Source: Ignavibacteria bacterium (GTDB lineage Bacteria; Bacteroidota; Ignavibacteria; SZUA-365). Taken from it: 64,000 bases of DNA. The translations under genes were made by a program, and so were the position numbers. Below the pieces are notes generated by a model, which saw nothing but the letters and a program-made list of their open reading frames with translations, searched no databases and was not told where the DNA came from. Location of the stretch: contig PKTF01000379.1 of assembly GCA_002869275.1 (NCBI GenBank), positions 1 through 64,000 on the forward strand, in the 5' to 3' direction. Positions within the stretch are counted from its first letter, which is position 1. Every line of letters begins with the position of its first letter. This document shows positions 14,722 through 56,136 of this stretch, piece after piece.

Positions 14722-14784
14722 CTACTCTAACCCCGCAGCGCGTTGTTCACAGGGGCGTATCCATCTACTTCCGGACATCTACTC

Positions 14785-15927
14785 ATGAAAAAACGGATTT
14801 TTTACATCATACCTGTCCTGATTCTCGTTTTGGGCTTCATCATAATGCAGATTCTGGTCGGAATGAAAGACGAACCTCAGCGCCGCGCTCCGGAACGAGT
14901 GGTGAAGCAGGTCCGTTCTGAGATCGTCAAGCTCGAGGACACGCCGACGCAGATAGAAGCATTGGGAAAGGTACTTTCATCGAGCCCAGTGCAGTTGATC
15001 AGTGAAGTCACTGGGGTTCTCCTCCCTGGAGACGTGCCTTTCAAACCGGGGCAGCGATTCAGTCGAGGCCAGGTGCTGCTTCGGATCGACAACCGCCAGG
15101 TTCAGTATACCTTGAACAGCACGAAAAGCGATTTCATGAATGCGCTCGCTACGGTACTGCCTGAAATGAAGATCGACCATCCTGCGGATTATGATGTCTG
15201 GCAGAAGTATTTCGACGGATGCGGTTTTGACGACACCCTGGCGGAACTGCCGGAGAGCACCCATCGCAGGATCAAGGTGTTACTGACCCGCGCCAACGTG
15301 TACAAGCTGTTTTTCGCTGTTCGCAACCTCGAAATCACACTGGAAAAACACGACATCACTGCCCCGTTCAATGGCTCCATTTCCATGACCACTCAGAGGG
15401 TCGGATCGAATGCGCGCAATGGAAGCGTCCTCGGAGAGATCATCAGTCTCCAGGACCTCGAAGTCGAAATCCCGATTCCCGCCGAGGATATTGCATGGGT
15501 GCGTTCAGGCAGCGACGTGATACTCCGGTCGGAGGAATTCGACAACGAATGGAAGGGTCGCATCGTTCGTACCGGCGACGTGGTCGATCGTCAGACTCAG
15601 ACCATACCGCTCTATGTCAGCGTGAACGGAACGGGCAGACCGCTCTATGAAGGAAGTTATCTCACGGCATGGATTCCAGGACGGGCTGTGACTGCAGGCG
15701 TGACCGTCCCACGACGCGCCCTCTACGAAGAACGATATGTCTACGTTATTACAAACGGACAACTCGAGATCCGTGACGTGACGATTGCACGTCGAAATCC
15801 CGAATCCGTGGTCGTGTCTGCCGGGCTCTCCGAAGGCGATACCCTTGTTACCGAACTTCTGCAGGGTGTGTCTCCAGGGATGCTGGCGCAGCCGCGCCTT
15901 CGCGGAATCGAGGAGCGCCCGCAATGA
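14785..15927 (+). CDS. RND efflux periplasmic adaptor (membrane fusion protein)
   Basis: A 380-residue protein. The ATG chosen starts MKKRIFYIIPVLILVLGF, an N-terminal signal/anchor; 14 residues upstream would spoil it. The body has the HlyD/AcrA pattern: a lipoyl-like half around SEVTGVLLPGDVPFKPGQRFSRGQVLLRID, a helical hairpin, the return half ITAPFNGSIS, and beta-barrel and membrane-proximal domains (VPRRALYEERYVYVI). It would bridge the inner-membrane pump and the TolC-type channel encoded next. Its stop overlaps the pump start (ATGA). The exported substrate is unknown. Confidence 0.9.
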   Translation: MKKRIFYIIPVLILVLGFIIMQILVGMKDEPQRRAPERVVKQVRSEIVKLEDTPTQIEALGKVLSSSPVQLISEVTGVLLPGDVPFKPGQRFSRGQVLLRIDNRQVQYTLNSTKSDFMNALATVLPEMKIDHPADYDVWQKYFDGCGFDDTLAELPESTHRRIKVLLTRANVYKLFFAVRNLEITLEKHDITAPFNGSISMTTQRVGSNARNGSVLGEIISLQDLEVEIPIPAEDIAWVRSGSDVILRSEEFDNEWKGRIVRTGDVVDRQTQTIPLYVSVNGTGRPLYEGSYLTAWIPGRAVTAGVTVPRRALYEERYVYVITNGQLEIRDVTIARRNPESVVVSAGLSEGDTLVTELLQGVSPGMLAQPRLRGIEERPQ

Positions 15928-18900
15928 GGGACATCATTTCCTTTTTTATTCGCTACAAAGTCTGGACGAATGTACTTCTGTTCAGCGTCATCCTGTTCGG
16001 GTTCCTTTTCTACCTGAACATGACCTATTCCTTTTTCCCCGAGACACGTCCTGATTTACTCACGGTGCAGGTCGCCTACCCCGGTGCTTCACCAGAAGAA
16101 ATGGAAGAAGGCGTGGTGCTCAAGATTGAGGAAGCGATTGACGGACTGGTCGGGATCGAACGTGTCACCTCGCTTTCACGAGAGAACTTCGGTACGGTCA
16201 CAGTTGAAATCACCTCTGGGTCGGATATGGACGATGTTCTGCGTGACGTGAAGAACGCAGTGGACCGCATCAACTCGTTCCCGCTCGGTGCTGAAAAACC
16301 GGTGATTTTTGAACAGAAATTCCGGACACGCGCACTCTCCATCGTGCTCTATGGAGAAACGGATCTCTACAATCTCAAATACTATGCCGAACGGATGCGC
16401 GACCGGCTGCTCGCTACCCCGGAAATCTCTCAGGTTGACACCGATGGCGTTCCACGACTGGAGTTCTCTCTTGATGTATCGGAACGAGATCTGCGTCGAT
16501 TTAACCTCAGCTTCCGAGAAGTTGCTGATGCCGTTGCAGCCGAGAATATCAACCTCTCTGGCGGAAAGATCGATACCCGCGATGAAGAAATTCTCATCAG
16601 AGCGAATGCGCGTGAATATTTCGCAAAAGAACTGAACAACATCGTCATCCGTGGTGCGAAAAACGGCACCATCGTGTACCTGAGTGATGTCGCGTCGCTT
16701 CAGGAGCGGTGGGAAGATGTTCCCGACAAGATCTCGTACAACGGCCGAAGCGCCGTGATCCTCACGATCGATAAAACCCGTGACGAAGATATCCTCGCCG
16801 TCGCTTCCGTGGCGAAAGCGCAGGTGCAGGAATTCAATGATGCGCACGAACAAGTCTCGGCGGAAGTCCTCGACGATACGACCATCAACCTTCAGCAGCG
16901 ACTCGATCTGTTGATCAATAACGGTCTGATCGGACTCGCACTGGTCATCATCACGCTCGGATTTTTCCTCAACCTTCGGCTGTCCTTCTGGGTGTCGGTG
17001 GGCATTCCCTTCTCCTTCGCCGGCATGTTCATCGTCGCAGGGCTCGTAGGGATCACGATCAACGTCATCTCTCTCTTTGGCATGATCGTCGTCGTCGGTA
17101 TACTCGTCGACGATGCGATCGTCGTGGGAGAAAACATCTACGCGCATTATGAACGTGGGAAACCCGCCCTGCAGGCCGCGCGTGACGGGACGATGGAAAT
17201 GATCGGTCCGGTAACGACCTCGGTGACCACAACCATCGTCGCCTTTCTGCCGTTTTTCTTTCTCGAAGGCTTTCTTGGAAAATTCATCTGGCATATGGCG
17301 CTCGTCGTCATCGCGACACTGTTTTTCTCCCTGATCGAGGCGTTCTTTATCCTTCCCGCTCATCTCGCCCATTCGAAAGGACTCCATCCGCATGCGCAGG
17401 ATAAGGGGATACGCAAACGTATTGACAGCGCGATAGATTGGTTCACTCAGAATGTGTACGGCACATCTTTGCGCTTCGCCCTGCGTCACAAATGGATTAC
17501 CGTCGTCACACCCATCGCGGCGGTTCTGATCACGGTCGGCCTGCTGCGCGGCGGACTGATCGGCGTAACCTTTTTCCCGTTCATTGATGGCGATACCATG
17601 CCCATCAATCTGTCTCTCGTTGCGGGCAGACAGGAAGCCGATACGGACTCCCTGCTCGCGCATATCGAACGGGCAAGCGTTGAACTGAATGAAGAATTGA
17701 AATCAGAACGGGCGGACGGCGCAGATGTGATTACAGGCTATAAACGCGAACTGGGAACAAACGATTTTGGCGAAAACGGCAGTCATACCGGACGGCTCAC
17801 GCTGGTCCTCATGCCCGGAGAAGAGCGAAACCTCGACACGCCGATAATCGCAAACCGCCTCCGCGAAAAGGTGGGCCTCATCCCGGAAGCTCAGAAGCTC
17901 ACCTATGGCCGGGTCGGCTTCTTTGGTAAACCGATTTCGGTCAGTTTGCTCGGGAACGACCTGACTCAGCTCACCAAGGCTCGCAATCTGCTGGTCGCAG
18001 AACTCAATAATTTTCCATCATTGAAGGATGTGACGGATTCAGAACAGGAAGGGCGTCGGGAAATCGATATCAGCCTGAAACCACGTGCGTATGCGCTGGG
18101 TCTGACACTTCGCGATGTGGCGGGACAGGTACGACAAGGATTTTTTGGGCTTGAAGTACAGCGAATCCAACGCGGAAGAGATGAAATCCGTGTCTGGGTG
18201 CGCTATACCGAGGATGATCGCGCAGCTCTCGGTTTCGTCGATCGTATGAGGATACGAACACCTGATGGATCCGAGTATCCCTTCAGCGAGCTTGCTGAAT
18301 ACAGCATCGCGCGTGGAATCATTACGATCAATCGTTTGGAGAATCAGCGTGAAATTAGGGTTGAAGCCAACCTCACCGATTTCGAAGCGGATCTCCCGCC
18401 GATCCTCGATGAAATCAGGGCAGAGGTGCTTCCGGCGGTTCTCTCACAGGTGACTGGTGTGCGCGCGTCGTTTGAAGGTCAGTCACGCAGCCAGGAAAAA
18501 ACAACCCGATCGATGAGAAATGCGTTCTCTGTCGCCTTCCTCCTCATGTTTATCCTGGTCATCCTCGTGTTTCGTTCCTACGCACAGGCCGCGCTCGTAT
18601 TCTCGATCATACCACTGGGCATTCTCGGTGCGATCTGGGGTCATGGAATTCACAACATCCAATTGAACACCCTTTCCATTTACGGTGTGATCGCACTTAC
18701 AGGTATCGTGATCAATGACAGTATCGTCTTCGTCGACCAGATCAACAGGAACCTCCGCGCAGGCAAAGCCCTCTTCGACGCTGTCTACGACGCGGGATTA
18801 TCTCGTCTTCGTCCTATTCTGCTTACAACCCTTACCACGTCCTTCGGACTGGCACCCCTGATCATGGAGACCAGCCGCCAGGCGCAGTTCCTGATCCCGA

Positions 18901-19091
18901 TGGCAGTGTCCGTTGCGTGGGGCCTGGCTTTCGGGACCTTTATCCTGCTCATCGTCCTGCCGGCGGGTTTTCTGGTGCTCAACAAGTTTCGACATCTCTG
19001 GGAAGTGCATGCACTCCGCAGAGGTGATATTTCTCGCGAGAACGTCGAGCCTGCGCTTAAAGAACTCGCCGTCAAGGAGATCCACGCATGA
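15924..19091 (+). CDS. RND-family efflux pump, inner-membrane transporter
   Basis: A 1055-residue protein, the usual length for AcrB/MexB-type pumps. An N-terminal helix is followed by a large periplasmic loop, a six-helix bundle, a second loop and a second bundle. The TM4 motif VVVGILVDDAIVVGENI contains the paired Asp residues that carry protons in hydrophobe/amphiphile RND pumps, which argues against the heavy-metal subfamily. It lies between its adaptor and TolC genes with ATGA overlaps on both sides, so the operon encodes a full tripartite pump driven by proton influx. Divergence from AcrB prevents naming a substrate. Confidence 0.93.
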   Translation: MRDIISFFIRYKVWTNVLLFSVILFGFLFYLNMTYSFFPETRPDLLTVQVAYPGASPEEMEEGVVLKIEEAIDGLVGIERVTSLSRENFGTVTVEITSGSDMDDVLRDVKNAVDRINSFPLGAEKPVIFEQKFRTRALSIVLYGETDLYNLKYYAERMRDRLLATPEISQVDTDGVPRLEFSLDVSERDLRRFNLSFREVADAVAAENINLSGGKIDTRDEEILIRANAREYFAKELNNIVIRGAKNGTIVYLSDVASLQERWEDVPDKISYNGRSAVILTIDKTRDEDILAVASVAKAQVQEFNDAHEQVSAEVLDDTTINLQQRLDLLINNGLIGLALVIITLGFFLNLRLSFWVSVGIPFSFAGMFIVAGLVGITINVISLFGMIVVVGILVDDAIVVGENIYAHYERGKPALQAARDGTMEMIGPVTTSVTTTIVAFLPFFFLEGFLGKFIWHMALVVIATLFFSLIEAFFILPAHLAHSKGLHPHAQDKGIRKRIDSAIDWFTQNVYGTSLRFALRHKWITVVTPIAAVLITVGLLRGGLIGVTFFPFIDGDTMPINLSLVAGRQEADTDSLLAHIERASVELNEELKSERADGADVITGYKRELGTNDFGENGSHTGRLTLVLMPGEERNLDTPIIANRLREKVGLIPEAQKLTYGRVGFFGKPISVSLLGNDLTQLTKARNLLVAELNNFPSLKDVTDSEQEGRREIDISLKPRAYALGLTLRDVAGQVRQGFFGLEVQRIQRGRDEIRVWVRYTEDDRAALGFVDRMRIRTPDGSEYPFSELAEYSIARGIITINRLENQREIRVEANLTDFEADLPPILDEIRAEVLPAVLSQVTGVRASFEGQSRSQEKTTRSMRNAFSVAFLLMFILVILVFRSYAQAALVFSIIPLGILGAIWGHGIHNIQLNTLSIYGVIALTGIVINDSIVFVDQINRNLRAGKALFDAVYDAGLSRLRPILLTTLTTSFGLAPLIMETSRQAQFLIPMAVSVAWGLAFGTFILLIVLPAGFLVLNKFRHLWEVHALRRGDISRENVEPALKELAVKEIHA

Positions 19092-20386
19092 AAATCCTGA
19101 CCTGGACCCTCATCCTTCTGCCTGCTCTGTTCCTTGCGTCTCGGGCGCAGGAGGTACTGAGCCTCGAGCAAGCCGTCTCCATCGGCCTGGAACGAAATCA
19201 CAGGATTCGTATCGCTCGCAATGATGCGGAAATCGCACGCAGCGAAACGCGGCGCGGTACCGCTGGTTTTCTCCCGACACTCGACGCGACTGGAAATCTG
19301 TCCTTCACTTCATCGCAACAGGAAACCAATTCGCCGTTCAGTTTCGGCGATTCTGATACACGAAACGCAAGTGCGCAGCTGGCATTGAACTGGACGCTGT
19401 TTGACGGGTTCCGGATGTTTGCCGAGCATGACAGGCTGCAGCAACTGGCAAGGCTTGGCGCATCTCAGGCGCGTAATGTCATAGAGCAGACGGTCATGAG
19501 CATTCTTGGCAGCTACATCCAGGTTGTACGCCAGTCACAGCTTCTCAGCGTGCAGGAAAGCACGCTGGCCCTGTCACGCACGCGATTCGAAAAAGCTCTC
19601 GTGCGGCACGAACTCGGCGGATCCCTGTCTGAGTTGCTGCAGGCACGGATAGCCTATCATGCAGACAGTGCAACGGCACTCGAACAGAAACTTCAAGTTG
19701 CCATCGCACGCAGGAATCTCAACCTTGCCGTGGGACGCGATCCACAAACCCCCTTCCTCACGGAAGAAACGATCAACCTGCCGGATTTCGCTTACGGTTT
19801 GGACGAAATGCTAGCGATGGCCCGCAAACGCAATGCCGAGCTTGATGTCGCCCGAAGCAGTTTGGAGGCTGCCGAAGCAGGCACGTCACTGAGTCATTCC
19901 GCGTTCTATCCGCGCTTGAGTCTGTTTGCGACCTACGGGTATGCCGACCGTCTGGTCGATGCCCCTGCACGCGGTGAAATCACCACGCTCAGTGCGGATG
20001 CCTCCGTTGGACTTTCGCTGAGCTTCAACCTTTTTGACGGCTTTCGGAACCTCGCTGACGTGGAACGCGCATCCCTGGCCGAGCAGAACGCACGCCTGAC
20101 ACTCGAAGAAGCTGACCTTCGGCTGGAGGGACTTCTAGATGAACAGTCGGATACGTACCGCACACGATTGCAGGCGCTGGATATCGAGGAGATCAAACGT
20201 GACGCTGCGCAGGCAAACCTGCAGTTGCAGATCGAACGATTCGATACCGGCACGATTTCCTCCCTCGAGTTCAGAGATGCTCAGCTGCAGTACATTCGCG
20301 CCGAGACCTCTGCGATCAACGCTCGTTTCGCTGCGCGTATCGCGCTGCTGGAGCTCCAGCGCCTCATCGGGGAGTTACAGATCTAA
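19088..20386 (+). CDS. TolC-family outer-membrane efflux channel
   Basis: A 432-residue protein with a signal peptide ending near FLASRAQ and two outer-membrane-efflux repeats (about 25-210 and 240-425) with long helices. Typical motifs include LEQAVSIGLERNHRIRIARNDAEIA and LSFNLFDGFRN. It provides the outer-membrane exit duct for the RND pump encoded just upstream; its start overlaps the pump stop. No terminator is seen behind it. The following 186 bases hold a 10-C run and regulatory-looking repeats that belong to the next operon. Confidence 0.9.
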   Translation: MKILTWTLILLPALFLASRAQEVLSLEQAVSIGLERNHRIRIARNDAEIARSETRRGTAGFLPTLDATGNLSFTSSQQETNSPFSFGDSDTRNASAQLALNWTLFDGFRMFAEHDRLQQLARLGASQARNVIEQTVMSILGSYIQVVRQSQLLSVQESTLALSRTRFEKALVRHELGGSLSELLQARIAYHADSATALEQKLQVAIARRNLNLAVGRDPQTPFLTEETINLPDFAYGLDEMLAMARKRNAELDVARSSLEAAEAGTSLSHSAFYPRLSLFATYGYADRLVDAPARGEITTLSADASVGLSLSFNLFDGFRNLADVERASLAEQNARLTLEEADLRLEGLLDEQSDTYRTRLQALDIEEIKRDAAQANLQLQIERFDTGTISSLEFRDAQLQYIRAETSAINARFAARIALLELQRLIGELQI

Positions 20387-20572: not shown

Positions 20573-20968
20573 ATGAAAAAAGCCATTCTTTGTGTTGACG
20601 ATGAAACACTGGTTCTGAACAGCCTGCGCACACAGTTGAGAGGTCATTTCGGTGATCGCTTCGCGTACGAAATCGCTGAAAGCGCCGACGACGCCTGGGA
20701 GGTCATTGAGGAACTCATCGGCGACGGAGTAGAAATACTGCTGATCGTCTCGGACTGGCTTATGCCCGGCATCAAGGGAGACGAGTTCCTGATTCAAGTC
20801 CACGGTCGCTATCCGGCTATCATCACGTTCATGCTCACCGGACAGGCCGACGACAGTGCCATCGAGAATGCGCGTGAGCACGCAGCCCTGCGAGCATGTT
20901 TTCATAAACCATGGGTGGAAAACGAATTGATCGAAGCAATCTGCACGGCCCTGGAGAACGGAGGATGA
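20573..20968 (+). CDS. Single-domain response regulator (receiver only)
   Basis: A 131-residue protein consisting of one receiver domain. The acidic pocket is CVDDE, the phosphoacceptor is Asp61 in IVSDWLMPG, the switch Thr is in MLTGQ and the Lys in HKPW. The LTGQ and KPW forms are typical of receivers linked to HD-GYP, cyclase and complex histidine kinase systems. It has no output domain, so it probably works as a phosphate shuttle or by binding a partner. It is the first gene of the cassette and overlaps the next gene (ATGA), whose N-terminal receiver is similar, suggesting duplication. Confidence 0.92.
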   Translation: MKKAILCVDDETLVLNSLRTQLRGHFGDRFAYEIAESADDAWEVIEELIGDGVEILLIVSDWLMPGIKGDEFLIQVHGRYPAIITFMLTGQADDSAIENAREHAALRACFHKPWVENELIEAICTALENGG

Positions 20969-22542
20969 GTAAACCCGTCCTGATGTGCGTTGATGATGAA
21001 GAAATGATCCTGCTCAGTCTCAAGGATCAGCTCCGCCATCATTTCAGCAAAGACTTCATGATAGAGATCATCGAAAGCGGTGACGAAGCGCTGGAACTCG
21101 CCAAGGACCTCATCTCATCATCGGTGGAAATCCCTGTCATCATCTGCGATCAGATCATGCCCGGAATGAAGGGCAATGAACTGCTGCGTCATCTCCATAC
21201 CCTGACCCCGAAAACATTCAGCGTACTGCTCACCGGACAGGCTGATGCAGGAGCCGTCGGCGATGCCGTCAATCACGCGAACCTGTATCGCTACATACCA
21301 AAGCCCTGGGAAGAAACGGATCTCGTTCTCACGATCAAGGAGGCAATTCGCAGCTTCTACCAGGACAAGCAACTGGAAGAGCAGAACCGTGCTCTCAAGG
21401 AAATTAACGAAACGCTTGAACAGCGCGTCGTCGACCGAACAGAAGAAGTCGTTCGGCAAAATGAGGAAATCCATAAGCAGATGCAGAGCATCGAGCAGCA
21501 ACGTGAGGAACTGCAGGTCCGCAACGAATTCATCCGCAACGTATTCGGTCGGTATGTCAGCGATGAAGTAATGAATACGGTGCTGAAGGATCCGGCAGGA
21601 TTACAGATTGGGGGTGCCAAGCGCGATATTTCCGTCCTGCTTTCGGACCTGCGCGGATTCACCATGCTCTCTGATCGGCTGCCTCCAGAGGAAGTCGTAC
21701 GCATCCTGAACCGCTATTTCGAAAAAATGGTGGAAATCATTTCCGAATACAGTGGTATCGTGATCGAATTTCTGGGTGACGGTATCATGGCCATTTTCGG
21801 GGCGCCCAAGCGCCTGGCAAACCATGCCGAGCACGCCGTTGCCTGCGCCCTGTCCATGCAGCAGGCCATGCACGAGATCAACGCGCAGCATGAAGCCGAG
21901 TCACTCCCCATGATCGAGATGGGTATTGGCGTCACATCGGGTGAAGTAGTCGTTGGGAACATCGGCTCGGAGCGAAGAACGAAATATGGCGTCATAGGCA
22001 CACCAGCGAATCTCGCGGCAAGAATCGAAGCTCTCAGTACCGGCCAACAGGTGCTGGTATCCTCGGAGACGCTTTCGCGCTGCAATGTTGAAATCGACAT
22101 CGAGAAGGAATTCGATGTCTCCGTAAAAGGTGTCGATACACCGTTGAGAATCCACTCCGTCTCCGCGATTCGTGACGGCTTCGATGTTGAATTCTTGCCT
22201 CAAAAACTCGTCATGCGCAAGGTTGAAAAAAACGTCCAGCTGGAACTCGCCGTTCTCGATGGGAAATCCGTCTCCGATACTGTTATCACGTGCACTCTTG
22301 TTGCCATCTCGAAACAGCAGGCGTTGCTCACCGGCTGCAAAGATTTGAAGCGTCACTCCGACGTCCGCGTACGCGCACTGAATATTCAGGGTGAAAATCT
22401 GCCCAGTGAGTCCTATGGAAAAGTCACCGCTGTCGGACCAGGCGGCACGGTACTGCGCTTCACGTCGCTGTTTCTCAACGAATCCGACGACTACTATTCG
22501 GAGCTGCTCGGGCTCGGGGCTGATTGGGAGGATACAACATGA
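20965..22542 (+). CDS. Response regulator with class III adenylate/guanylate cyclase domain
   Basis: A 525-residue protein from the ATG that overlaps the previous stop. Receiver at 1-125 (Asp62 in ICDQIMPGMKG, KPW), coiled coil at about 135-195, then a class III cyclase at about 215-400. Metal-binding aspartates are Asp228 (LLSDLRGFT) and Asp272 (GDGIMAIFG); Lys340 and Thr in TKYGVIGTPANLAARIE suggest ATP rather than GTP. Residues about 410-525 form a further beta-rich domain that looks like a divergent PilZ-type module without the usual RxxxR motif. Phosphorylation probably controls cyclic nucleotide output. It is coupled to the porin gene behind it by ATGA. Confidence 0.9.
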   Translation: MSKPVLMCVDDEEMILLSLKDQLRHHFSKDFMIEIIESGDEALELAKDLISSSVEIPVIICDQIMPGMKGNELLRHLHTLTPKTFSVLLTGQADAGAVGDAVNHANLYRYIPKPWEETDLVLTIKEAIRSFYQDKQLEEQNRALKEINETLEQRVVDRTEEVVRQNEEIHKQMQSIEQQREELQVRNEFIRNVFGRYVSDEVMNTVLKDPAGLQIGGAKRDISVLLSDLRGFTMLSDRLPPEEVVRILNRYFEKMVEIISEYSGIVIEFLGDGIMAIFGAPKRLANHAEHAVACALSMQQAMHEINAQHEAESLPMIEMGIGVTSGEVVVGNIGSERRTKYGVIGTPANLAARIEALSTGQQVLVSSETLSRCNVEIDIEKEFDVSVKGVDTPLRIHSVSAIRDGFDVEFLPQKLVMRKVEKNVQLELAVLDGKSVSDTVITCTLVAISKQQALLTGCKDLKRHSDVRVRALNIQGENLPSESYGKVTAVGPGGTVLRFTSLFLNESDDYYSELLGLGADWEDTT

Positions 22543-23744
22543 GCAGATTCTTCGGGACGGCAGCGCTGCTTCTGATCCTTCTCAGTATCACGGCCATGGG
22601 ACAGGATTCCGAGACGCTGCTTTTCGGATCATTGCAAACCATGTTCTTCAATCAGAAATCCAACGTGACGCTGAGTGCACCGCTGAGCACGGGCGCAATG
22701 AACATCTCGGAAGAACGCAGCACGTTCGCAGTGCAGCAAATGGATCTGTTTCTTCGCAAAGATATCGGTGAAAGTTTCTCCGCCTTCGTGGATCTTGAAT
22801 TCCAGCTGAACTATTCTTCGAACAACCGCTGGGGATCGATGAGTCTGCAGGAGGCGTGGCTCAATTATGAACCCACGGACGCCTTCAGTGTGAAAGTTGG
22901 CATGCTGTACCCTGCGTTCAACAATCTGAACGAGGTGAAAAACAGGCTGGCGCTTCTACCCTATGTTTTCAGACCTGGCGTCTACGAGCGCCTTCTCTCG
23001 TCGCTGTATATGAGTGAGAATTTTGTTCCTGAGCACGCCTTCGTTCAGATCTCAGGTGCCGTTCCGGTGGAACAGTTCTTCTTCGATTACGCAGCCTACG
23101 TCGGGAACGCCGAAAGTTCGTACATCTCCTACTCCGACAGCTACGGCAGCCCGGTCAACGACCTCGATACGAAGTTTGAATTTCTCTCTGGAGTGGATCC
23201 GAACAGTTTCGATGTCAAACTGTTCGGTGGCCGCCTCGGACTTCGCTCTCGTACTGAGAACTTCAAGGCCGGCTTTTCGCTCACGCACGACTATGACAAT
23301 CTCAACGACACGACGCAGTTCCCCCAGATGTACACCGGTCCGCGCGCTCCGCTCATCGGCGATGCCTCCCGCGTACGCCTCGGTGCCGACCTGTCGGGAA
23401 GGATCGGTCCGGTCAACTTCGAATCTGAGGTGATAAAGGTTCTCTATGACCACGAGCCTGCCGAGCGTCGAGATATCGAGCTCGACCTACTGTTTTACTA
23501 CACCATGCTCGGTTATCATGTAACGGACCGGCTATTTCTCTATGGGTCCTATGAGGGAGGCAATTCGACCTTCGATGAAAAATGGAAACGCAATACGGTT
23601 ACGGCTGGCGCCTCATATCGCATCAGCGCTGCCGTAGCGGCGAAGGCGCAGTACATCACGTACAGACAGTTTCGTGATGAGGCTCTCCGCCTCGATGAAG
23701 TGGTCATCAAGTTTGTATTTCTCGGATTCAGCATTGTATTATGA
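22539..23744 (+). CDS. Porin-like outer-membrane beta-barrel, copy 1 (OprO/OprP-type)
   Basis: A 401-residue protein with an ATG overlapping the cyclase stop and a GGGAGG ribosome binding site. A signal peptide ends near SITAMGQ. The mature part begins LLFGSLQTMFF and has the layout of phosphate-selective-porin-like barrels: FVDLEFQLNYSS, SLQEAWLNYEPTDAFSVKVGML, and a C-terminal strand KFVFLGFSIVL. It is clearly paralogous to the barrel encoded two genes downstream, with well over half of residues matching in the N-terminal half. The periplasmic binding-like protein lies between the two. Anion uptake or sensing is inferred, not shown. Confidence 0.8.
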   Translation: MSRFFGTAALLLILLSITAMGQDSETLLFGSLQTMFFNQKSNVTLSAPLSTGAMNISEERSTFAVQQMDLFLRKDIGESFSAFVDLEFQLNYSSNNRWGSMSLQEAWLNYEPTDAFSVKVGMLYPAFNNLNEVKNRLALLPYVFRPGVYERLLSSLYMSENFVPEHAFVQISGAVPVEQFFFDYAAYVGNAESSYISYSDSYGSPVNDLDTKFEFLSGVDPNSFDVKLFGGRLGLRSRTENFKAGFSLTHDYDNLNDTTQFPQMYTGPRAPLIGDASRVRLGADLSGRIGPVNFESEVIKVLYDHEPAERRDIELDLLFYYTMLGYHVTDRLFLYGSYEGGNSTFDEKWKRNTVTAGASYRISAAVAAKAQYITYRQFRDEALRLDEVVIKFVFLGFSIVL

Positions 23745-23751
23745 CGCATCC

Positions 23752-24192
23752 ATGAAAACGCATTTTTTTATAGCCTTCCTCGTGACCGGAATCGTTCTTC
23801 TCACGTGCAGTTCGCTGGCACAGACCGTGGTCATCGTGAACACATCCGTGCCATCATCGACATCATTCGATGTCGATGAACTCCTGGACGTCTATACGCT
23901 GAATAAAGCGCACTGGGAAGACGGTTCTCGCATCACCGTTTTTGACCTCAAACGTGGTAAAAGCAAAGCCGCATTCTACGAATACATCGGCATGTCGGAA
24001 GAAGAACTGCAACGAATCTGGCTGCGGAAGCAGTTCACCGGAAGAGCACGCCCCCCCAGATCACTCTCCAGCGAAGAGGAAATCGTCGAGCGTGTGGGAC
24101 GCACACCGGGAGCTATCGGATACGTGCAGAACCAGTCCGTCAAGAACAACCGGAATGTTCGCGTCGTCGCAAAAATCAAGGGGACAAAATGA
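23752..24192 (+). CDS. Small periplasmic phosphate-binding-protein-like protein
   Basis: A 146-residue protein from an ATG with the signal peptide MKTHFFIAFLVTGIVLLTCSSLA. The mature part follows the short PstS-like pattern: a VVIVNTSVPSSTSFDVDELLDVYTL start, WEDGSRITVFDLKRG, FYEYIGMSEEELQRIWLRKQFTGRARPP, and the closing PGAIGYV. Proteins of this size and pattern are commonly annotated as phosphate ABC transporter substrate-binding proteins, but there is no ABC transporter here. Between two porins and upstream of a histidine kinase, it may present a ligand to the kinase. A run of seven C at 24051 lies in the frame. It overlaps the next gene by ATGA. Confidence 0.78.
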   Translation: MKTHFFIAFLVTGIVLLTCSSLAQTVVIVNTSVPSSTSFDVDELLDVYTLNKAHWEDGSRITVFDLKRGKSKAAFYEYIGMSEEELQRIWLRKQFTGRARPPRSLSSEEEIVERVGRTPGAIGYVQNQSVKNNRNVRVVAKIKGTK

Positions 24193-25484
24193 TTGTGTCC
24201 TTTCAAGCGACAATAAGGATTCGTGAATCTGCCTGTGGATTTGGACGTGCTCTCCTCGTTCCCAGCGTAGCGGCCCTCTTACTGTTGCTACTGCACGCGG
24301 ACGTGCTGCACGCTCAGGAGTCTGACGAACTGCAGCTGTTCGGGTCGATGCAGACAATCTTTTTTCACCAGGATTCCCGGATGACGATTGATTCTCCTAC
24401 GGAGAATATCCATTTCACGGGCAGTGAATCCCGCAGCACATTCGCGCTGCAGCAAATGGACCTGTTTTTCAGAAAAGAGATGAGCGATAACTTTACCGCC
24501 TTCGTCGATCTCGAATTTCAGCTGAATTATTCCTCTGAAAAACATTGGGGCAGCCTCAGCCTGCAGGAAGCCTGGATGAATTACCATGTCAGCGATGCCC
24601 TGAACATCAAAACGGGATTGTTGTATCCGGCCTTCAACCAGTTGAACGAGATAAAGAATCGGCTCGCACTCCAGCCGTACCTTTTCCGTCCCCTCATTTA
24701 CGAACGACTGCTTTCCAGTAAATTTCTTGCAGAGGACTTCATCCCCGAGCATGCGTTCATCCAGATCTCAGGGATGGTCCCTTTCGGTGATTTTTTTGCC
24801 GAGTATGCCGTATACACGGGTAATGCCGAATCCTCCTACATCACGCAGTCTGCCCCATCGGGTGGAATCGATACCGATGTCAACGAGAATTTCGAATTCC
24901 TGAGCGGTGTCGATCCCACCGCGATCAAATTCAAACTCTTCGGCGGACGCATCGGCTTGCAGTCGCGTAATGAGCAATTGAAATGCGGCCTTTCCGTCAC
25001 GCACGACTATAACAACCTTCGTGACAGCTCAGCCACGCCGATCCATCTGGTAACATCCGAAGCGCGGTCACTGTTTGATAAGGACGCATCGCGCTGGCGC
25101 TTCGGCGCGGACTTCTCATATCGCCTCGGACCTGCATTCATCGACGCTGAAATGATACAGGTTCTGTATGATTCGAAACGAGCGGCGGAGCAGAAATTCG
25201 AGCTCGAGCAGAGCTTTCTGCACACCATGGTAGGCTACGATATCGCTTACCCACTCACGGTATACGGATCGCTGCAGTGGAGTGACTACACCTTCGGCCT
25301 CGATGCCGATTATTTCGTGTACTCTGCCGGTGCAGCATACCGTATCAACAGTGACATCGGGGCAAAAGCTCAGGTAATCGTCTACGAGGAAACGTATAAG
25401 AACGATCCCCAGGCTCTGACGATCCCCTACAACCAGAAGGTGACGATCACGTTCTTCTTTCTTGGCTTCAGTGTCCTCCTTTAA
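24189..25484 (+). CDS. Porin-like outer-membrane beta-barrel, copy 2
   Basis: A 431-residue protein starting at the ATG that overlaps the previous stop. A longer N-terminal leader precedes a signal segment that ends at VLHAQ. From LFGSMQTIFF onward it aligns without large gaps to the first porin of the cassette (FVDLEFQLNYSS, SLQEAWMNY, KNRLALQPYLFRP, YERLLSS, FEFLSGVDP) and ends in ITFFFLGFSVLL. The strong match in strands and the more variable loops suggest divergence in ligand or channel properties after duplication. It is followed by the histidine kinase 28 bases later. Confidence 0.8.
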   Translation: MIVSFQATIRIRESACGFGRALLVPSVAALLLLLLHADVLHAQESDELQLFGSMQTIFFHQDSRMTIDSPTENIHFTGSESRSTFALQQMDLFFRKEMSDNFTAFVDLEFQLNYSSEKHWGSLSLQEAWMNYHVSDALNIKTGLLYPAFNQLNEIKNRLALQPYLFRPLIYERLLSSKFLAEDFIPEHAFIQISGMVPFGDFFAEYAVYTGNAESSYITQSAPSGGIDTDVNENFEFLSGVDPTAIKFKLFGGRIGLQSRNEQLKCGLSVTHDYNNLRDSSATPIHLVTSEARSLFDKDASRWRFGADFSYRLGPAFIDAEMIQVLYDSKRAAEQKFELEQSFLHTMVGYDIAYPLTVYGSLQWSDYTFGLDADYFVYSAGAAYRINSDIGAKAQVIVYEETYKNDPQALTIPYNQKVTITFFFLGFSVLL

Positions 25485-25512
25485 AACTCTACGAGAATAA
25501 TCGCCACTGCCC

Positions 25513-27270
25513 ATGCATCGCAGACGCAACCGAAGGTTTACTGTTCGGCAGAAAATTCAGCTTCCGACGATACTGTTCATCGCGCTGCTGTCGTTGTTCA
25601 TGTGGTTTTATTTCCCCTACGAACAGCGCAACGCCCTTCGAGACAGCTTCAGGAATGAAGTACAATCGTTGGCGCAGATGGTCGCAACGGGCGTGACGCT
25701 CGGACTTTCAAATCAGGACTGGGAGGGCATGCAGCGTTCGATCGATCTCGTACGTCAGGCTCCCGGCGTCGATTTTGTTACGTTGATCGATCTTCAGGGA
25801 GAAACCTTCACCGCAGACGAAGACGATTTTCGCTATGATCCGGCATATGAAGACAGCGATTCGCTCATTGTTGCGTTCTATTCTGTAGACACGGATCTGT
25901 TTACGGGCAATGTCGTTGTCGGAGCAAGCACCGATTTCATTACCCATCGCGTGCATAAACTCGGATTCACAGCCTTCTGGGTTTCCATCATCACATTGCT
26001 GCTCGGAACGTTCTTCGGGATGTGGCAGGCGAATCTGATCGTCCGGCCTCTTTCCCTCCTGCGCCTTGCCGCCATCAAGGTCGGACATGGCGACCTGGAG
26101 ACCGAGGTGTACCGGACGACCAATGACGAAATAGGCGATCTTGCCAACGAGTTCGGCAAAATGATCACGAGCGTGCGTCATGCTCAGGAGCATGTTCAGG
26201 ATGCCAATGCGGAATTACAGACGAAGAACAGACTGCTCGAAGCCGAGCGGCGTCAGCTTGCACGCACCCTGGAGAACCTGAAAACGACACAGGCCCAGCT
26301 CGTCCAGTCGGAAAAAATGGCCGCTCTCGGCCAGCTGATCGCAGGCATTGCACATGAAATCAATACTCCGCTGGGTGCGATTCGCGCCTCTATTTCGAAT
26401 ATCGAACACGCACTTTCGCATACACTGCAGGATATGCCCGTCATGATGGCACGCCTCTCGCCGGAGATGCGTGCGCTCTTTTTCGAGATGGTCGGATGCA
26501 GCCTCTCGAAGCACCTCGCACTTTCACCGAGGGAGGAGCGCAAATACCGTCGATCCATCACCAGCACACTCGAAGAGAGCGGATATCTGCATGCTTCCGA
26601 TATCGCTGACACACTTACAGAGATGGCTCTCTTCGAGGAGTGGGAACGATATACTGCCCTGCTTCAGCACGAGGACGTCAAAGACATCCTTCAGGTGGCC
26701 TCGCGCCTCGTCCTGCAGCAGCGGAACAGCCAGAATATCGAGATGGCGGTAGAACGCGCCAGCAAGATCGTGTTCGCACTGAAAAACTTCTCACATCACG
26801 ATCAAAGCGGCCAGATGACATCCGCGGATATTACGCAAGGCATCGATACCGTGTTGACACTTTATCACAACCAGCTCAAGCATGGCATCGAAGTGCTGCG
26901 CCGCTTCAATCCCATCCCACGGATTCTCTGCTACCCGGATGAATTGAACCAGGTGTGGACAAACCTCATCCACAACGCGATTCAGGCGATGCAGTACCAG
27001 GGTCAGCTGGAAATTTCGGTCGGCCTTCTCGAGACCTGCATCGAAGTGCGCATTACCGACAGCGGACACGGCATCCCCGAAGACATTCGGGATAAAATCT
27101 TTGATCCGTTCTTCACCACCAAAGAAGCCGGCGAAGGCACGGGCCTCGGTCTCGATATCGTGAAACGCATCATCGAGAAACACAGCGGTACGATCGACGT
27201 CGAATCCGAACCGGGTAGCACCACCTTCGCCGTCTGCCTGCCGGTGCAGATCGATACAACGTCGTCGTGA
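25513..27270 (+). CDS. HAMP-domain sensor histidine kinase with inserted segment
   Basis: A 585-residue inner-membrane kinase: TM1 at about 17-36, a periplasmic sensor at about 37-150, TM2 at about 152-176, HAMP to about 228, coiled coil to about 270, then the H-box with His281 ([13 protein letters not shown]). The N-box ([15 protein letters not shown]) begins only near residue 479. About 90 extra residues, including [11 protein letters not shown] and a helical block ending DTLTEM, therefore lie between phosphoacceptor and ATP-binding domains. G boxes are DSGHGIP and GTGLGL. It is the likely phosphodonor for the two receivers at the start of the cassette. The ligand is unknown; anion binding via the small binding protein is a guess. 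Confidence 0.9.
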
Positions 27271-27307: not shown

Positions 27308-28651
27308 ATGAATACGCGTTTGCGACAGCATCTGCGTGCAACCGCATCGCTTGCGCTGCCAGTCGCTATCGGACAGCTCGGGCATGTCATGCTCGGCGTC
27401 ACCGACAGTCTCATGGTGGGACGCCTCGGGCATGTGCCGCTCGCCTCCGCTTCCCTCGGGAATTCCGTCTTCATCCTCATTCTCGTGCTTGCCATCGGCC
27501 TGGCATCTGCCATCACTCCACTGACAGCCATTGCCCGCGGTGAGGATGACCACGAACAGGCGGGCATCGTGCTGCGACAAGGACTGCTGCTCAATAGTAT
27601 CGTCGGTGTGATTCTCGTTGCTTCGACTATTCTGCTGTCGAATATCCTCCCGTATCTGAATCAACCCTCTGACGTCGTAGAGAGGGCTATTCCATACCTT
27701 CGCATCATGGGATTCAGCTTCTTCCCGATGATGGTGTTCGTCAGCTTTCGCAATTTCATTGAAGGACTGTCGTTCACTCGCCCTGCCATGGTCATCATTC
27801 TCCTGGCAAACCTTGTCAACGTTGGCGGAAACTGGGTATTTATCTACGGCAACCTCGGAATGCCCGCGCTGGGACTCAACGGTGCCGGATACAGCAGCCT
27901 TTGCGTCGAGGTCTTCGCCGCAATTGCCATCGTCATCTACGTTTTTCGTTCGCCGCGCTTTAGACGCTATCAACCGCTGCTCGAGTTCAGATCGTTCAAC
28001 ATCCCGATGCAGATAAGACTTCTCCGCATCGGCGTCCCCAGCGGTGTGCAGTATTTTTTTGAAGCCGGTTCGTTTTCCTTCTCGGCAATCATGCTGGGGT
28101 GGCTGGGCGCGACAGCGCTCGCCGCACATCAGATCGCGATCAGCCTCGCCTCCATCAGCTTCATGATTACGCTCGGTGTATCGCATGCAGCGACGATTCG
28201 GGTGGGACACGCCATGGGGCAAAAAGATCGGGGGTTGGTCCGCCAGGCCGGATTCAGCGCTGTCATCCTCGCCATCGGGCTCATGTCCACCGCGGCGCTT
28301 ACCTTTATTCTATTCAGGGATTTCCTCCCGACCCTGTATATCAGCGATGCCGAGGTCATTCCCCTCGCTTCCACCCTGCTGATCCTCGCGGCGGCGTTCC
28401 AGCTTTCTGACGGACTGCAGGTCGTGGGACACGGACTTCTTCGCGGCATGACGGATGTCACCGTCCCAATGTTCATCGCCATCGTCGCATACTGGATCAT
28501 CGGGTTGCCGCTCGGGTACTTTTTCGGATTTGTTGTCGAACTCGGAGCACCCGGTGTCTGGATGGGATTTGTCGCCGGACTCAGTACTGCTGCGGGTGCC
28601 TTCCTGTTCCGCTTTCACAGACAGAGTCGCAGACTCTTTACTTCCCGATGA
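27308..28651 (+). CDS. MATE-family multidrug/metabolite exporter
   Basis: A 447-residue membrane protein with twelve hydrophobic helices and MATE motifs: [27 protein letters not shown] at the start and the matching pattern in the second half ([59 protein letters not shown]). The NorM/DinF-like family exports cationic compounds using sodium or proton gradients. It begins 37 bases after the histidine kinase and may share its transcript. Its end overlaps the convergent TcdA gene by 14 bases, so no separate terminator is present. Confidence 0.92.
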
Positions 28652-45590: not shown

Positions 45591-47849
45591 TTATGCTTCC
45601 GAATTCTTCTCAGGCATGAAACACTCGTTACAGAGTCGGCAGAGCGCGCCTGCATGATACACGATCTCCTCGCATTCGGTCAGTACTTCGAGGTACAAGA
45701 GACTGGTACGAGAGCTGTATTTGTCCTTTTTGGATCGCTTGAGCTGCTGCTTGTCTGCCTTGCGGATGCGGTTCCGTAATTCGTCACCGTCCTCCGTCAT
45801 CTGGTCGAGCTGACTGAAATCCTGTCGGGCAATACTCTCAGATACGCGTGTCAGTTCCTGCTTCATATCCCGGATGATCTCGGCGAGTTCCTCGGTCTGG
45901 AAATCACTGAGACCCTTGTGGTTATTGTCGACATGCGTGTACACCTGCAGGGTCAGATTGCGGAGACTGCGCAGAAGGAGCTGCAGAGAACTGATCGCCT
46001 GGGTATACGTTTTCTGATCCATGTCTTCCTCACCTTCCTCGAGCTGCGAGGTGCGAAGAATTGCAGCCGACATGCCTTTACCCTTTTTATGCAGCGACTT
46101 GGCCAGGTTCCGTGTTTCTTTCAGCGCGAGACGGTCTTCATCGATGAGGCCCTGGTACGTCTGTTCCACGAGGTTTGTTGTGGTACGGATCGTGTCACTC
46201 AGATCGTCCTGCAGATACTTCATCGCATCTTCGATGCCCATATCACTGTTGCCGCTATGCAGGCGCTCTTCCTCAGCGAATTCCTTCTCACGTTTGCGAT
46301 GAATGCGCACGGTGCGCAGGAGCAGGAAGCCCGCGAGTCCAGCCAGCCCTATCAGGCCGTAAATCTGGGTAAAGAAGATAATGGTGGCAATGATTGCCGC
46401 GGCTGTGGAAGCGAGAAACGCCGTGAAGAACCAGCCGCCGATCACGGTAAGGACACCGGAGACACGATATACAGCGGAATCTCGACCCCAGGCGCGGTCG
46501 GGCAGCGCCGTGGCCATCGCGACCATGAACGTGACATATGTCGTTGAAAGCGGCAGCTTCAGCGATGTACCAAATGAAATGAGCAGGGCTGCAACAATGA
46601 GATTCACCGCTGCACGCAGGAGGTCGAACGACGGTGCCTCACCGTCTTCATTGGAAGTCGGAACGTACTTTGTCGTATCAAAGCGTCCTTCGATTTTCTG
46701 TTTGATCGAATCCGGCGTGATGATCGAGAAAAACTTGAAGACGGAGAGGACGACGCGAACAATCGAGCGTGCCGGAGCAATCGATTCGAACCGTTCGAAT
46801 CCTTCGCTCTGGCGTCCGAGATTGAGAGAGGTCGCGGTGACCGTCCTTGCTTTCTTATTTATCCACAATGTCACAGCCATGATGCTACCAGCTGCGAGGA
46901 GAATCCACGTATTCGCACGCACAGGTTCCGCGAGCGAATTCATTGCATGGGACCACGGATCGGCTGAACCATGAGCGTTAATGTAGGCAGCGAGGCCGCC
47001 CATCGGCGCACCGATGAAGTTCACAAGGTCATTTGCCGCGAACGCGAGCGCGAGCGCGAAGGTACCAGCGAGCACGATCGGTTTGAACACGTTGATCTTG
47101 AATATCCAGACCAGAAGCTGCATGATCACCGTCCAGACCACAAACGAAAGCATGGTCAGATAAAACGCATTCGCTTTTAGCCAGGCAGCCTGGTCAGCAT
47201 CGAGGAAGGACGCACCCTTCGCACCCTTGACCATCATGAAGTACGTAAGCGCGGCGAGTGCAAATCCACCCCAGAGCGATCCGTATCGTTTTAATCGTTT
47301 GCCGTATTCGAACGTGAACAGCATTCGTGAAAAGTACTGCACCAAGGCTCCGACGATAAACGCGACAATCACCGATGCAACGATACCAAACAGGATCTTA
47401 AAGACACTCGCAGTGTTGATGTAGGTAAGAATCTCACCAATTCCACCATCACCTGCCTGCAGTACCTTGATGGTGGATATCGCGAAGGCCGATCCGAGAA
47501 GTTCGAAGACAAGCGAAACCGTGGTTGACGTTGGGAGCCCGAGCGTGTTGTAGAAATCGAGCAAGAGCACGTCCGTGAGCATTGTCGCAACAAAAATGAA
47601 CATGACCTCGGGGAAGGTCAGCATTTCCGGGTTGAAAATGCCTTTTCGCGCTACTTCCATCAATCCGCTAGAAAAGGTCACACCCACCACGATTCCAATG
47701 GTCGCGATGATCATAATGACAAATCTCGGTGCAACCTGTGCCCCGATGGCGGAATTCAGAAAATTCACGGCATCATTAGCTACACCAACCATCAGGTCGA
47801 TAATGGCCGCAGCGAGAAGAATCACAAGGATGATGATAAAAATGTCCAT
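45591..47849 (-). CDS. PiT-family phosphate transporter fused to a PhoU-like C-terminal domain
   Basis: A 752-residue protein. The first about 530 residues contain the PiT layout with the two signature repeats GVANDAVNFLNSAIG and AFAANDLVNFIGAPMGG and about twelve membrane helices split by a cytoplasmic loop. From about 560 to the end there is a soluble all-helical region with PhoU-like heptads (DDLSDTIRTTTNLVEQTYQGLID and further helices). PiT carriers bring in phosphate with protons or sodium; the attached PhoU-like tail probably gates transport. It is the last gene after phoB, phoR and phoU, and no PstSCAB genes are present in the window. Confidence 0.88.
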   Translation of the reverse strand: MDIFIIILVILLAAAIIDLMVGVANDAVNFLNSAIGAQVAPRFVIMIIATIGIVVGVTFSSGLMEVARKGIFNPEMLTFPEVMFIFVATMLTDVLLLDFYNTLGLPTSTTVSLVFELLGSAFAISTIKVLQAGDGGIGEILTYINTASVFKILFGIVASVIVAFIVGALVQYFSRMLFTFEYGKRLKRYGSLWGGFALAALTYFMMVKGAKGASFLDADQAAWLKANAFYLTMLSFVVWTVIMQLLVWIFKINVFKPIVLAGTFALALAFAANDLVNFIGAPMGGLAAYINAHGSADPWSHAMNSLAEPVRANTWILLAAGSIMAVTLWINKKARTVTATSLNLGRQSEGFERFESIAPARSIVRVVLSVFKFFSIITPDSIKQKIEGRFDTTKYVPTSNEDGEAPSFDLLRAAVNLIVAALLISFGTSLKLPLSTTYVTFMVAMATALPDRAWGRDSAVYRVSGVLTVIGGWFFTAFLASTAAAIIATIIFFTQIYGLIGLAGLAGFLLLRTVRIHRKREKEFAEEERLHSGNSDMGIEDAMKYLQDDLSDTIRTTTNLVEQTYQGLIDEDRLALKETRNLAKSLHKKGKGMSAAILRTSQLEEGEEDMDQKTYTQAISSLQLLLRSLRNLTLQVYTHVDNNHKGLSDFQTEELAEIIRDMKQELTRVSESIARQDFSQLDQMTEDGDELRNRIRKADKQQLKRSKKDKYSSRTSLLYLEVLTECEEIVYHAGALCRLCNECFMPEKNSEA

Positions 47850-47902
47850 GGTACCAAACTGTTAGTAGATGTAGTGCAGTAATATACGAGTAATCGTGTT
47901 GA

Positions 47903-48568
47903 TCATCTCTCCGCCCTGTGATGATGCCGTATGATTTTTTCTTCCTGAACATAGACGACATTTTCGGCAATATTCGTCGCATAATCAGCGATACGCTCGA
48001 GATGCCTTGAAATCGCAAGTACATTGAGAAGCCTTTCTGTCTGTTCAGGATTCTCTTGGATTCTGTTCCTGACCAGGTCATGCATCTCACGATGCAGGGC
48101 ATCCACCTCACTGTCGGCGGCACATACGTCACGCGCCCCTGCTGCATCCATCCCGACCAGTGAATCGAGACTGAGTCTCACCATGGTCATCGTGCGTTCA
48201 GCCAGGATCATGAGTTCATTCGGCAGTACGAGTTGATCGTGTTCTCCGATGTTGAGAACGCGTCGGGCAATGTTCGCCGAGAGGTCTCCGATACGCTCGA
48301 GGTCGCTGTTGATCTTCAGGATTGCAACGATCAGGCGGATCTCTTCCTTCGGAAGTCCCCCCAGCATCAGGAGATGAACGCAATCTTCCTCGATTGCGAT
48401 CTCGAGCCTGTCGACGTCTTTGTCTGAAGCGATCACGCGTTCCGCAGCTTCCCGATCGCGCTGGCGAATGGCGATGACACAGCGTCGGGCGTTTTCTTCA
48501 ACGAGAGCGCTGAGCGAAAGAATCCTGCGCTTAAGCTGTTCCGAATTTATTGCGGGCCTGTCCGTCAT
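47903..48568 (-). CDS. phoU: Phosphate signalling protein PhoU
   Basis: A 221-residue all-helical protein with two PhoU repeats. The metal-binding-type motifs ILKINSDLERIGDLSANIARR and VLAISRHLERIADYATNIAENVVY contain the conserved E/D-R-I-x-D-x-A-x-N-I signature of PhoU. PhoU keeps the PhoR kinase in its inhibited state when phosphate is plentiful and modulates the transporter. It lies between phoR (49 bases) and the PiT gene (53 bases) on the same strand, so kinase, brake and transporter are made together. Confidence 0.95.
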   Translation of the reverse strand: MTDRPAINSEQLKRRILSLSALVEENARRCVIAIRQRDREAAERVIASDKDVDRLEIAIEEDCVHLLMLGGLPKEEIRLIVAILKINSDLERIGDLSANIARRVLNIGEHDQLVLPNELMILAERTMTMVRLSLDSLVGMDAAGARDVCAADSEVDALHREMHDLVRNRIQENPEQTERLLNVLAISRHLERIADYATNIAENVVYVQEEKIIRHHHRAER

Positions 48569-48617
48569 GTGCTTGCTTCAATTTCAACGATGTAGCAGTT
48601 CGTGTTATCGTACCCGG

Positions 48618-50423
48618 TCATGCGACCTCCAGGTCGTCATCGCGATCGATGGTCGTGCGCAGGACGATGGTGAAGACACTTCCCTGGCCTGGCGTACTCT
48701 GTACCTCGACGAATCCTCGGTGCGCCTGAGCGATGTGCTTGACAATGGCGAGTCCGAGTCCGGTACCACCCATTTTTCTGCTTCGCGCTTTATCGATACG
48801 ATAAAAGCGCTCGAAGAGACGAGGGAGATGTTCCGCTTCAATACCACAGCCCTCGTCGCGAACCATGATCGTCACAGTGTCTTTGTCTCCGAGCTGCGCG
48901 CTCACCCACACGTCCTTACTTTCTTCGCTGTACTTGATCGCGTTTCCGATCAGATTGACCAGCGCCTGCTCCAGCAAAGGAGGATTCATCAAAGCCCTGA
49001 GTGCCTCATCCCCGTCAAGATGCAGCGTTATGGATTTCGCATCGGCGTCGTGCGAACAGGATTGGACCGCCGACACCATGGCATCGTACACTGAGCCTGT
49101 GACCAGTGTGATTTCCTCACGCTCACTACCCTGTTCGATACGGGAAAGACTGAGGAGATCTTCTATGATTGCATTCAGACGATCTGCCTGCTTGGAGACG
49201 ATGCTGAGAAAACGTGCGGCATCATCCTTGTCGTGCATCGCGCCATCGAGCAATGTTTCGACGAATCCTTTAATACTCGTGATGGGGGTTTTCAACTCGT
49301 GAGACACATTCGCGACGAAATCCTTGCGCACGTTTTCCAGCGTACGCAATTCCGTGACATCGTTGAGCACGACCAGCACGCCGATGACGGTGTCGCTGGT
49401 GTCTTTCAGAGTACTGCCGTGCGCCTGCAGAAAACGCTCCTTCGTGTCTACGAGCGTGATATACCCCTCGATCGCATGATCGGTACTCAGCGCATGCTCG
49501 ACAAAATGCTGTAATCCCACGTTTCGGACAGCTTCCTGGATACTTCTTCCCAGCGCCTTCTCGGGATCGATATTCAGCAGCTCCGCCGCACTGTTGTTGA
49601 TGTTAATCAGTCGTTCCTCGGTGTCGAATGCGAGAACTCCCTCAATCATGCTGGAAAGGACTGCATCTTGCTGACTGTGCTGCTGTACGATCACCGAGAT
49701 TCTGTCCTGCAGCTGTTCCGCCATGGTATTCATCACCCTGGCAAGGTCGCGGAGCTCATCCGTGCGTGGCAGCGGCAGTCGGAAACCGAGTTCTCCATCA
49801 GCAAAACGTCGCGCTCCGTCTTTCATCTCCTCGATCGGACGTGTTATTCGCCTCGAGATGAGGAGGCTCATCAATCCGGCAAGAAAGGTGATACCGAGAC
49901 CACCGAGCGCGATCTGCCACTGAATGCTGCGGATACTCGTTTCCACTGTTTGAACTGGAACCGCCGTTCGGAGAACACCGAAGACCCTTCCGTGCCGGCG
50001 CAGTGGAATTGCAGCGTACATGGTACTCAATTCCAGCGTTGCGCTGAACCGTGTCGATGTGCTGACGCGACCGCCCAGTGCACCTTGAACTTCAGGGCGG
50101 GATCGGTGATTATCCATAGACCGTGGATCATGCTCCGAATCCGCTATCACTCTGCCATCCGGCAAGATGACGGTAATCCTCGTCTGCGACCGTCTGCCCA
50201 GGTCATCACACAGCGCATCGAGGTCATCGAGACGATCAGATGCGAAGCGCTGCGTAATATCCTCGTGCAGAAGCTGCGCTCTGGCTTCGAGATCATCGGA
50301 CACGCGATGCATGAGTATACTCTCGATCGTCAGCGTGATCACGAAGGTAAACGCCAGCAGGGCGAGGAAAATGATCAGGAAATTTGATGTGAAGAGTTGC
50401 CAGAACAGACGTTTGATTCGCAT
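48618..50423 (-). CDS. phoR: Phosphate-regulon sensor histidine kinase PhoR
   Basis: A 601-residue membrane kinase: TM1 at about 14-38, a periplasmic sensor of about 130 residues, TM2 at about 172-192, HAMP, PAS domain at about 255-355, phosphoacceptor His375 (FVANVSHELKTPITSIKGF), and an ATPase domain with NLIGNAIKYS, DEGCGI and GTGLGLAIVKHIA. The domain order matches Gram-positive-style PhoR/PnpS with an extracytoplasmic domain, longer than E. coli PhoR. It is two bases from phoB and followed by phoU, so the assignment to phosphate control rests on context as well as architecture. Confidence 0.9.
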   Translation of the reverse strand: MRIKRLFWQLFTSNFLIIFLALLAFTFVITLTIESILMHRVSDDLEARAQLLHEDITQRFASDRLDDLDALCDDLGRRSQTRITVILPDGRVIADSEHDPRSMDNHRSRPEVQGALGGRVSTSTRFSATLELSTMYAAIPLRRHGRVFGVLRTAVPVQTVETSIRSIQWQIALGGLGITFLAGLMSLLISRRITRPIEEMKDGARRFADGELGFRLPLPRTDELRDLARVMNTMAEQLQDRISVIVQQHSQQDAVLSSMIEGVLAFDTEERLININNSAAELLNIDPEKALGRSIQEAVRNVGLQHFVEHALSTDHAIEGYITLVDTKERFLQAHGSTLKDTSDTVIGVLVVLNDVTELRTLENVRKDFVANVSHELKTPITSIKGFVETLLDGAMHDKDDAARFLSIVSKQADRLNAIIEDLLSLSRIEQGSEREEITLVTGSVYDAMVSAVQSCSHDADAKSITLHLDGDEALRALMNPPLLEQALVNLIGNAIKYSEESKDVWVSAQLGDKDTVTIMVRDEGCGIEAEHLPRLFERFYRIDKARSRKMGGTGLGLAIVKHIAQAHRGFVEVQSTPGQGSVFTIVLRTTIDRDDDLEVA

Positions 50424-50425
50424 TG

Positions 50426-56126: not shown

Positions 56127-56136
56127 GCCTTGAATG

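Follow-up and report, generated by a model that had tools for sequence, protein, structure and literature searches.

A six-gene locus of an Ignavibacteria bacterium that may relay an outer-membrane signal through a one-lobed PstS relative to a predicted guanylyl cyclase

To our knowledge, few routes lead from the state of an outer-membrane channel to a cytoplasmic second messenger, and bacterial cGMP signalling has been described in few systems. YfiBNR of Pseudomonas aeruginosa consists of an outer-membrane protein (YfiB), a small soluble periplasmic protein (YfiR), and an inner-membrane receptor (YfiN), the last with a PAS/CHASE8-type periplasmic domain, a HAMP domain, and a second-messenger output. 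YfiN is freed when YfiR is sequestered by YfiB at the outer membrane (PMC4655355). In PstS–CtpL phosphate chemotaxis, as in LuxPQ, a member of the periplasmic binding-protein family signals to a membrane receptor. In P. aeruginosa, CtpL is bound by PstS in its Pi-loaded state and is stimulated by it (PMC4926252). For the output, class III guanylyl cyclases are recognized by two metal-binding Asp residues, substrate positions at which Glu replaces Lys and the second residue is other than Asp, and an Asn and an Arg (PMC4215837). Cya2 from Synechocystis is such a guanylyl cyclase with an E–G pair, and is converted to an adenylate cyclase by the E488K replacement (PMC5995499, PMC4215837), and XC_0250/XC_0249 of Xanthomonas constitute one bacterial cGMP pathway (PMC3770947).

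The locus analysed here, of which no description was found in the open-access literature, lies in a window of 64,000 nt (contig PKTF01000379.1, C128) from an Ignavibacteria assembly of 3.93 Mb in 436 contigs. As the first-pass annotation had stated, six genes stand in a row, all of them intact ORFs on the plus strand (20573–27270). They encode a stand-alone receiver (REC1, 131 aa; 20573–20968), a receiver–cyclase (REC-cyclase, 525 aa; 20965–22542), a porin-like outer-membrane barrel with a signal peptide (barrel A, 401 aa; 22539–23744), a secreted single-lobe relative of PstS (mini-PstS, 146 aa; 23752–24192), a second porin-like outer-membrane barrel that is a tandem paralogue of the first (barrel B, 431 aa; 24189–25484), and a histidine kinase (585 aa; 25513–27270). 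The junctions, described at first pass as nearly all joined by ATGA, show this overlap at three of five positions (20965, REC1/REC-cyclase; 22539, REC-cyclase/barrel A; 24189, mini-PstS/barrel B), and the remaining two are gaps of 7 nt (barrel A/mini-PstS) and 28 nt (barrel B/kinase). The initial family assignments held in Pfam for the receivers (REC), the cyclase (Guanylate_cyc), and the kinase (HAMP/HisKA/HATPase), whereas the porin-like and PstS-like matches stayed below cut-off; for the barrels no porin family exceeded the curated Pfam cut-off, with only Porin_4, Porin_O_P, and DUF2490 below it. The 52% identity between barrels A and B points to a tandem duplication. REC1 and the receiver of REC-cyclase (REC2) are 44% identical, and the response-regulator pocket is complete in both (phospho-acceptor D61, D9/D10, T89, and K112 in REC1; D10/D11, D62, T90, and K113 in REC2). 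A promoter scan gave no more matches than shuffled sequence. We assign a probability of about 50% to the reading of these genes as a sensory relay across the envelope, in which the kinase links two modules.

Mini-PstS is a true relative of PstS. Its AlphaFold2 model (pLDDT, 93) retrieved PstS proteins in a Foldseek search, in which ~120 residues align to part of a two-lobed protein of 240–320 residues. The PBP_like_2 match, below the Pfam cut-off, covers only the middle of the family (94–199 of 267), and the profile alignment with the full PstS of the same genome covers only residues ~95–206 of the compared stretch. No second lobe was found in the 146 residues, which make up one lobe with lobe I absent. 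In the profile alignment, GSGTTHIF of the same-genome PstS stands opposite GKSKAAFY of mini-PstS, and the SGT phosphate-binding motif is absent from the cassette family. Conservation is instead concentrated in IWLRKQFTGxAxPP and GAIGYV, and the invariant IWLRKQF-G-A-PP stretch is a candidate protein-contact face. On account of the single lobe and the lost motif we reject a full phosphate-binding protein, and with lobe I and the SGT oxyanion motif missing, the first-pass assignment to the usual binding proteins for phosphate, sulphate, or molybdate is not supported. A single lobe without this motif suggests, by analogy with YfiR, that mini-PstS is more likely a periplasmic adaptor than an anion-binding clamshell. 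The fold matches of mini-PstS are PstS proteins, YfiR is not among the listed Foldseek matches, and no YfiR family appeared in the Pfam or NCBIfam results for the cassette. In PstS–CtpL the binding protein has two lobes and serves transport, whereas mini-PstS has one lobe without the phosphate motif and is encoded together with a barrel and a receptor. A mini-PstS subgroup at eight loci retains an S-x-T-type motif, mostly with a barrel beside it and without a clear receptor; one of these loci (L087) has three tandem copies.

The kinase comprises a transmembrane segment, a small periplasmic PAS-like/CHASE8-like domain (residues ~38–150), a second transmembrane segment, HAMP, a DHp domain with His281, and HATPase. 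The model of the sensor domain is PAS-like (pLDDT, 84), and among the structures that it matches are WalK and, from a LapD orthologue, the periplasmic output domain; the periplasmic domains of LapD-type proteins and WalK have other proteins as their partners. After HAMP, the Pfam family matched most often is CHASE8, in nine of 24 receptors (best E-value, 1.8e-6), the match of the cassette kinase itself being weak (E = 0.076). The receptor may resemble that of YfiBNR in its periplasmic and HAMP domains, but the latter carries a diguanylate cyclase (GGDEF) in the same polypeptide, whereas the cassette has a HisKA/HATPase kinase and a separate receiver–cyclase. The path first envisaged, from ligand entry through the binding protein to the kinase, is one possible path only, an adaptor or anti-sensor role being at least as likely. 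In its explicit form, the barrels would admit a small anion, mini-PstS would bind it, alone or as a cleft-forming homodimer, and the loaded form would stimulate the kinase in the manner of PstS and CtpL. The behaviour of Pi-loaded PstS toward CtpL, the true kinship of mini-PstS with PstS, the four-helix-bundle sensor of the receptors at L067, L070, and L072, and the S-x-T-type motif retained in the subgroup above (L078, L083, and L088, among others) speak for this route; we nevertheless regard it as unlikely for the cassette family, in which lobe I is lacking, the known phosphate site is gone with the change from GSGTTHIF to GKSKAAFY, and conservation lies in the two other motifs.

On the cytoplasmic side, the DHp hairpin of the kinase contains a ~90-residue insertion (residues ~300–395) with an LSxREER motif, for which no name was found among the Pfam or NCBIfam results for the kinase. 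This insertion is common to kinases of Leptospira, a deltaproteobacterial MAG, and other Bacteroidota; the catalytic core is shared by kinases of Leptospira and Nostoc, beside which no cyclase is annotated. Within the class, 31 of 197 genomes encode the insertion-kinase core (E ≤ 1e-60). The kinase–receiver–receiver–cyclase block recurs without porins at one locus of the same class (L134), where two DHp-insertion kinases with TPR or multi-TM inputs, a lone receiver, and a receiver–cyclase stand in a row, and neither barrel nor mini-PstS was detected. Identities with the cassette are 53% for REC2, 44% for REC1, and 42–43% for the kinase core, and in the L134 cyclase the substrate positions are occupied by K and D, as in the adenylate type. 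Beside an insertion kinase, the related receiver is found on a SpoIIE domain at L135 and on a kinase at L136. These recurrences indicate that the C-terminal half of the kinase and the receivers belong to a relay that serves other inputs and outputs as well, and support the output order of kinase, receivers, and cyclase in the first-pass annotation. The cassette combines two modules, each also found without the other: an envelope input of barrel, mini-PstS, and receptor, and an output relay of kinase, lone receiver, and receiver–cyclase.

REC-cyclase consists of the receiver, a coiled coil, a class III nucleotidyl cyclase domain, and a C-terminal PilZ-like domain. Its catalytic residues are the metal-binding Asp228 and Asp272, the substrate pair Glu268/Gly342, and the transition-state residues Asn349 and Arg353, so that the class III guanylyl cyclase set (PMC4215837) is complete; Glu and Gly of the substrate pair are invariant in five aligned cassette cyclases. 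The nearest solved structure is the Cya2 catalytic domain (PDB ID: 2w01), and since Glu268/Gly342 is a Cya2-type pair, we predict cGMP as the product, which narrows the cyclic AMP or GMP named at first; adenylate cyclase output is disfavoured by the pair. Ala352, however, stands where Cya2 has a Tyr that boosts guanylyl cyclase activity, so that the enzyme may be weak or mixed in its activity. Unlike Cya2, a membrane protein with CHASE2, and XC_0250, which has TPRs, the cassette cyclase, which shares bacterial cGMP signalling with them by prediction, is a response regulator and ends in a PilZ-like tail. We keep the term PilZ-like, rather than PilZ, for these C-terminal 125 residues, as one of eight members gave a PilZ match (0.0015). 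For the receiver and linker, the top-scoring NCBIfam model is NF053512, whose cut-off of 400 is not reached (145.6 bits), and in this they resemble the NosR-type response regulators, c-di-GMP phosphodiesterases whose output differs from the nucleotidyl cyclase of the cassette. Four cNMP-binding proteins encoded elsewhere in the genome are candidate targets of cGMP.

Barrel A has matches in seven of the 12 family genomes (three of five genera), the other five being without it. Gene order, which had been named beforehand as the feature to be tested, is kept for all six genes in four relatives of two genera (G001, G002, and G004 of one genus, and G006 of a different one); in G003 the contig ends within a barrel gene. 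One-porin versions occur in G008 of another genus (REC, REC-cyclase, mini-PstS, single barrel, kinase) and in G012 of another family (REC, REC-cyclase, single barrel, mini-PstS, kinase), suggesting that the core consists of five gene types and that the barrel was duplicated in part of the family. An HlyD-type adaptor, an RND pump, and TolC (14743–20386, plus strand) precede the cassette, and a MATE transporter (27308–28651, plus strand) follows the kinase. RND and TolC stay beside the cassette in G002, G004, and G006 and are absent from the versions at L020 and L028; the MATE gene is found 3' of the kinase across family f1, including L020, and not at L028. Kept in most of the family, not in every version, these exporters are neighbours only, and core membership is ruled out by L020 and L028, which retain the core without the RND pair. 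They bear on a reading in which the barrels are anchors rather than ligand channels, the assembly of the outer membrane decides whether mini-PstS is sequestered or released, and RND/TolC and MATE belong to the regulon. The flanking exporters and the sequestration of YfiR by YfiB would fit such monitoring of envelope integrity; the absence of the exporters in G012 and of the RND pair in G008, as well as the nature of YfiB, an OmpA-like lipoprotein and no barrel, make it a doubtful explanation, less probable still than the anion path. Elsewhere in the window, the minus strand carries a Pit-type transporter (PHO4), PhoU, a PAS–HAMP histidine kinase, and an OmpR-type regulator (45591–51217), ~18 kb from the cassette, which look like PhoR/PhoB with Pit, and two big consecutive putative lipoproteins of 721 and 735 aa (53805–58344).

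Beyond the family, a scan of 396 genomes of the phylum with the mini-PstS profile gave matches in 29. At 32 of the 37 phylum loci read, mini-PstS has a related barrel no more than 600 nt away, and none was found elsewhere in the DNA of those loci; a match to the sensor profile, which includes HAMP and in a few cases matches HAMP only, lies within the same distance at 22 of 37. With the order kept in relatives and the adjacency of barrel and mini-PstS phylum-wide, the linkage is far beyond chance. Over 19 loci, mini-PstS, barrel, and sensor diverge in a correlated manner (r = 0.85 for mini-PstS and barrel, 0.77 for mini-PstS and sensor, and 0.68 for the third pair; Mantel p = 0.0002 each; first two r, 0.81 and 0.65 without close relatives), values that include any contribution of the species tree, for which they are not corrected. 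According to Pfam, the adjacent receptor is a methyl-accepting chemotaxis protein (MCP) at eight loci, as would parallel PstS–CtpL, a kinase or hybrid kinase at seven, a four-helix-bundle kinase at L067, L070, and L072, and a SpoIIE protein at L084; at L067 and L070 a receiver–cyclase also lies beside the kinase. A common periplasmic domain is thus combined with MCP, HK, hybrid HK, HisKA_2, and SpoIIE outputs. On plasmids of Pseudomonadota, mini-PstS adjoins a porin and an MCP in Pseudoalteromonas and Agarilytica, and a porin and a GGDEF–EAL protein in Caballeronia; on the Alteromonas macleodii plasmid pKD01 (L119), its gene is ~2 kb from a type IV CRISPR (csf) locus. At some loci the barrel is present with no receptor beside it, and the pair may have a different job there.

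The company of receptors with many output types supports the first-pass view of sensing rather than uptake. That the porins serve nutrient entry, with mini-PstS delivering to a distant transporter and the kinase only regulating their expression, is very improbable: the full-length PstS gene directly 3' of a porin-like ORF on another contig (C157; L113:255–2376) indicates that this genome does use pairs of porin and PstS for uptake, but mini-PstS repeatedly adjoins receptors, including MCPs and a GGDEF–EAL protein, which would not be direct regulators of uptake genes, and the cassette, as noted at first pass, contains no ABC transporter, neither permease nor ATPase. The conventional pair on C157 may resemble the ancestor of barrel and mini-PstS.

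In the trans-envelope relay that we infer, including its protein contacts, signal, and direction of regulation, the barrels and the one-lobed mini-PstS would act on the kinase and control it by way of the small PAS-like domain that it has in the periplasm, with mini-PstS acting, like YfiR, as a soluble messenger or adaptor between the outer membrane and the receptor. The kinase with the DHp insertion would autophosphorylate on His281 and pass the phosphate to the lone receiver, a possible sink, timer, or shuttle, and to the receiver of REC-cyclase, which when phosphorylated would make cGMP, as predicted from Glu268/Gly342; the cGMP would have at least one of the four cNMP-binding proteins as its target. 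More tentatively, and at less than even odds, barrel and half-PstS may be a general plug-in envelope sensor of many bacterial groups, in which the lobe lost its ligand site, became a dedicated periplasmic messenger, and informs its partner receptor, of whatever kind, about the cargo or state of an outer-membrane barrel, be it for chemotaxis, a kinase, a phosphatase, c-di-GMP, or a kinase-driven guanylate cyclase. If this is true, many short proteins annotated as 'phosphate ABC transporter substrate-binding protein' would be sensors and not transport proteins, and the MCPs, kinases, and cyclases beside mini-PstS would gain a testable input.
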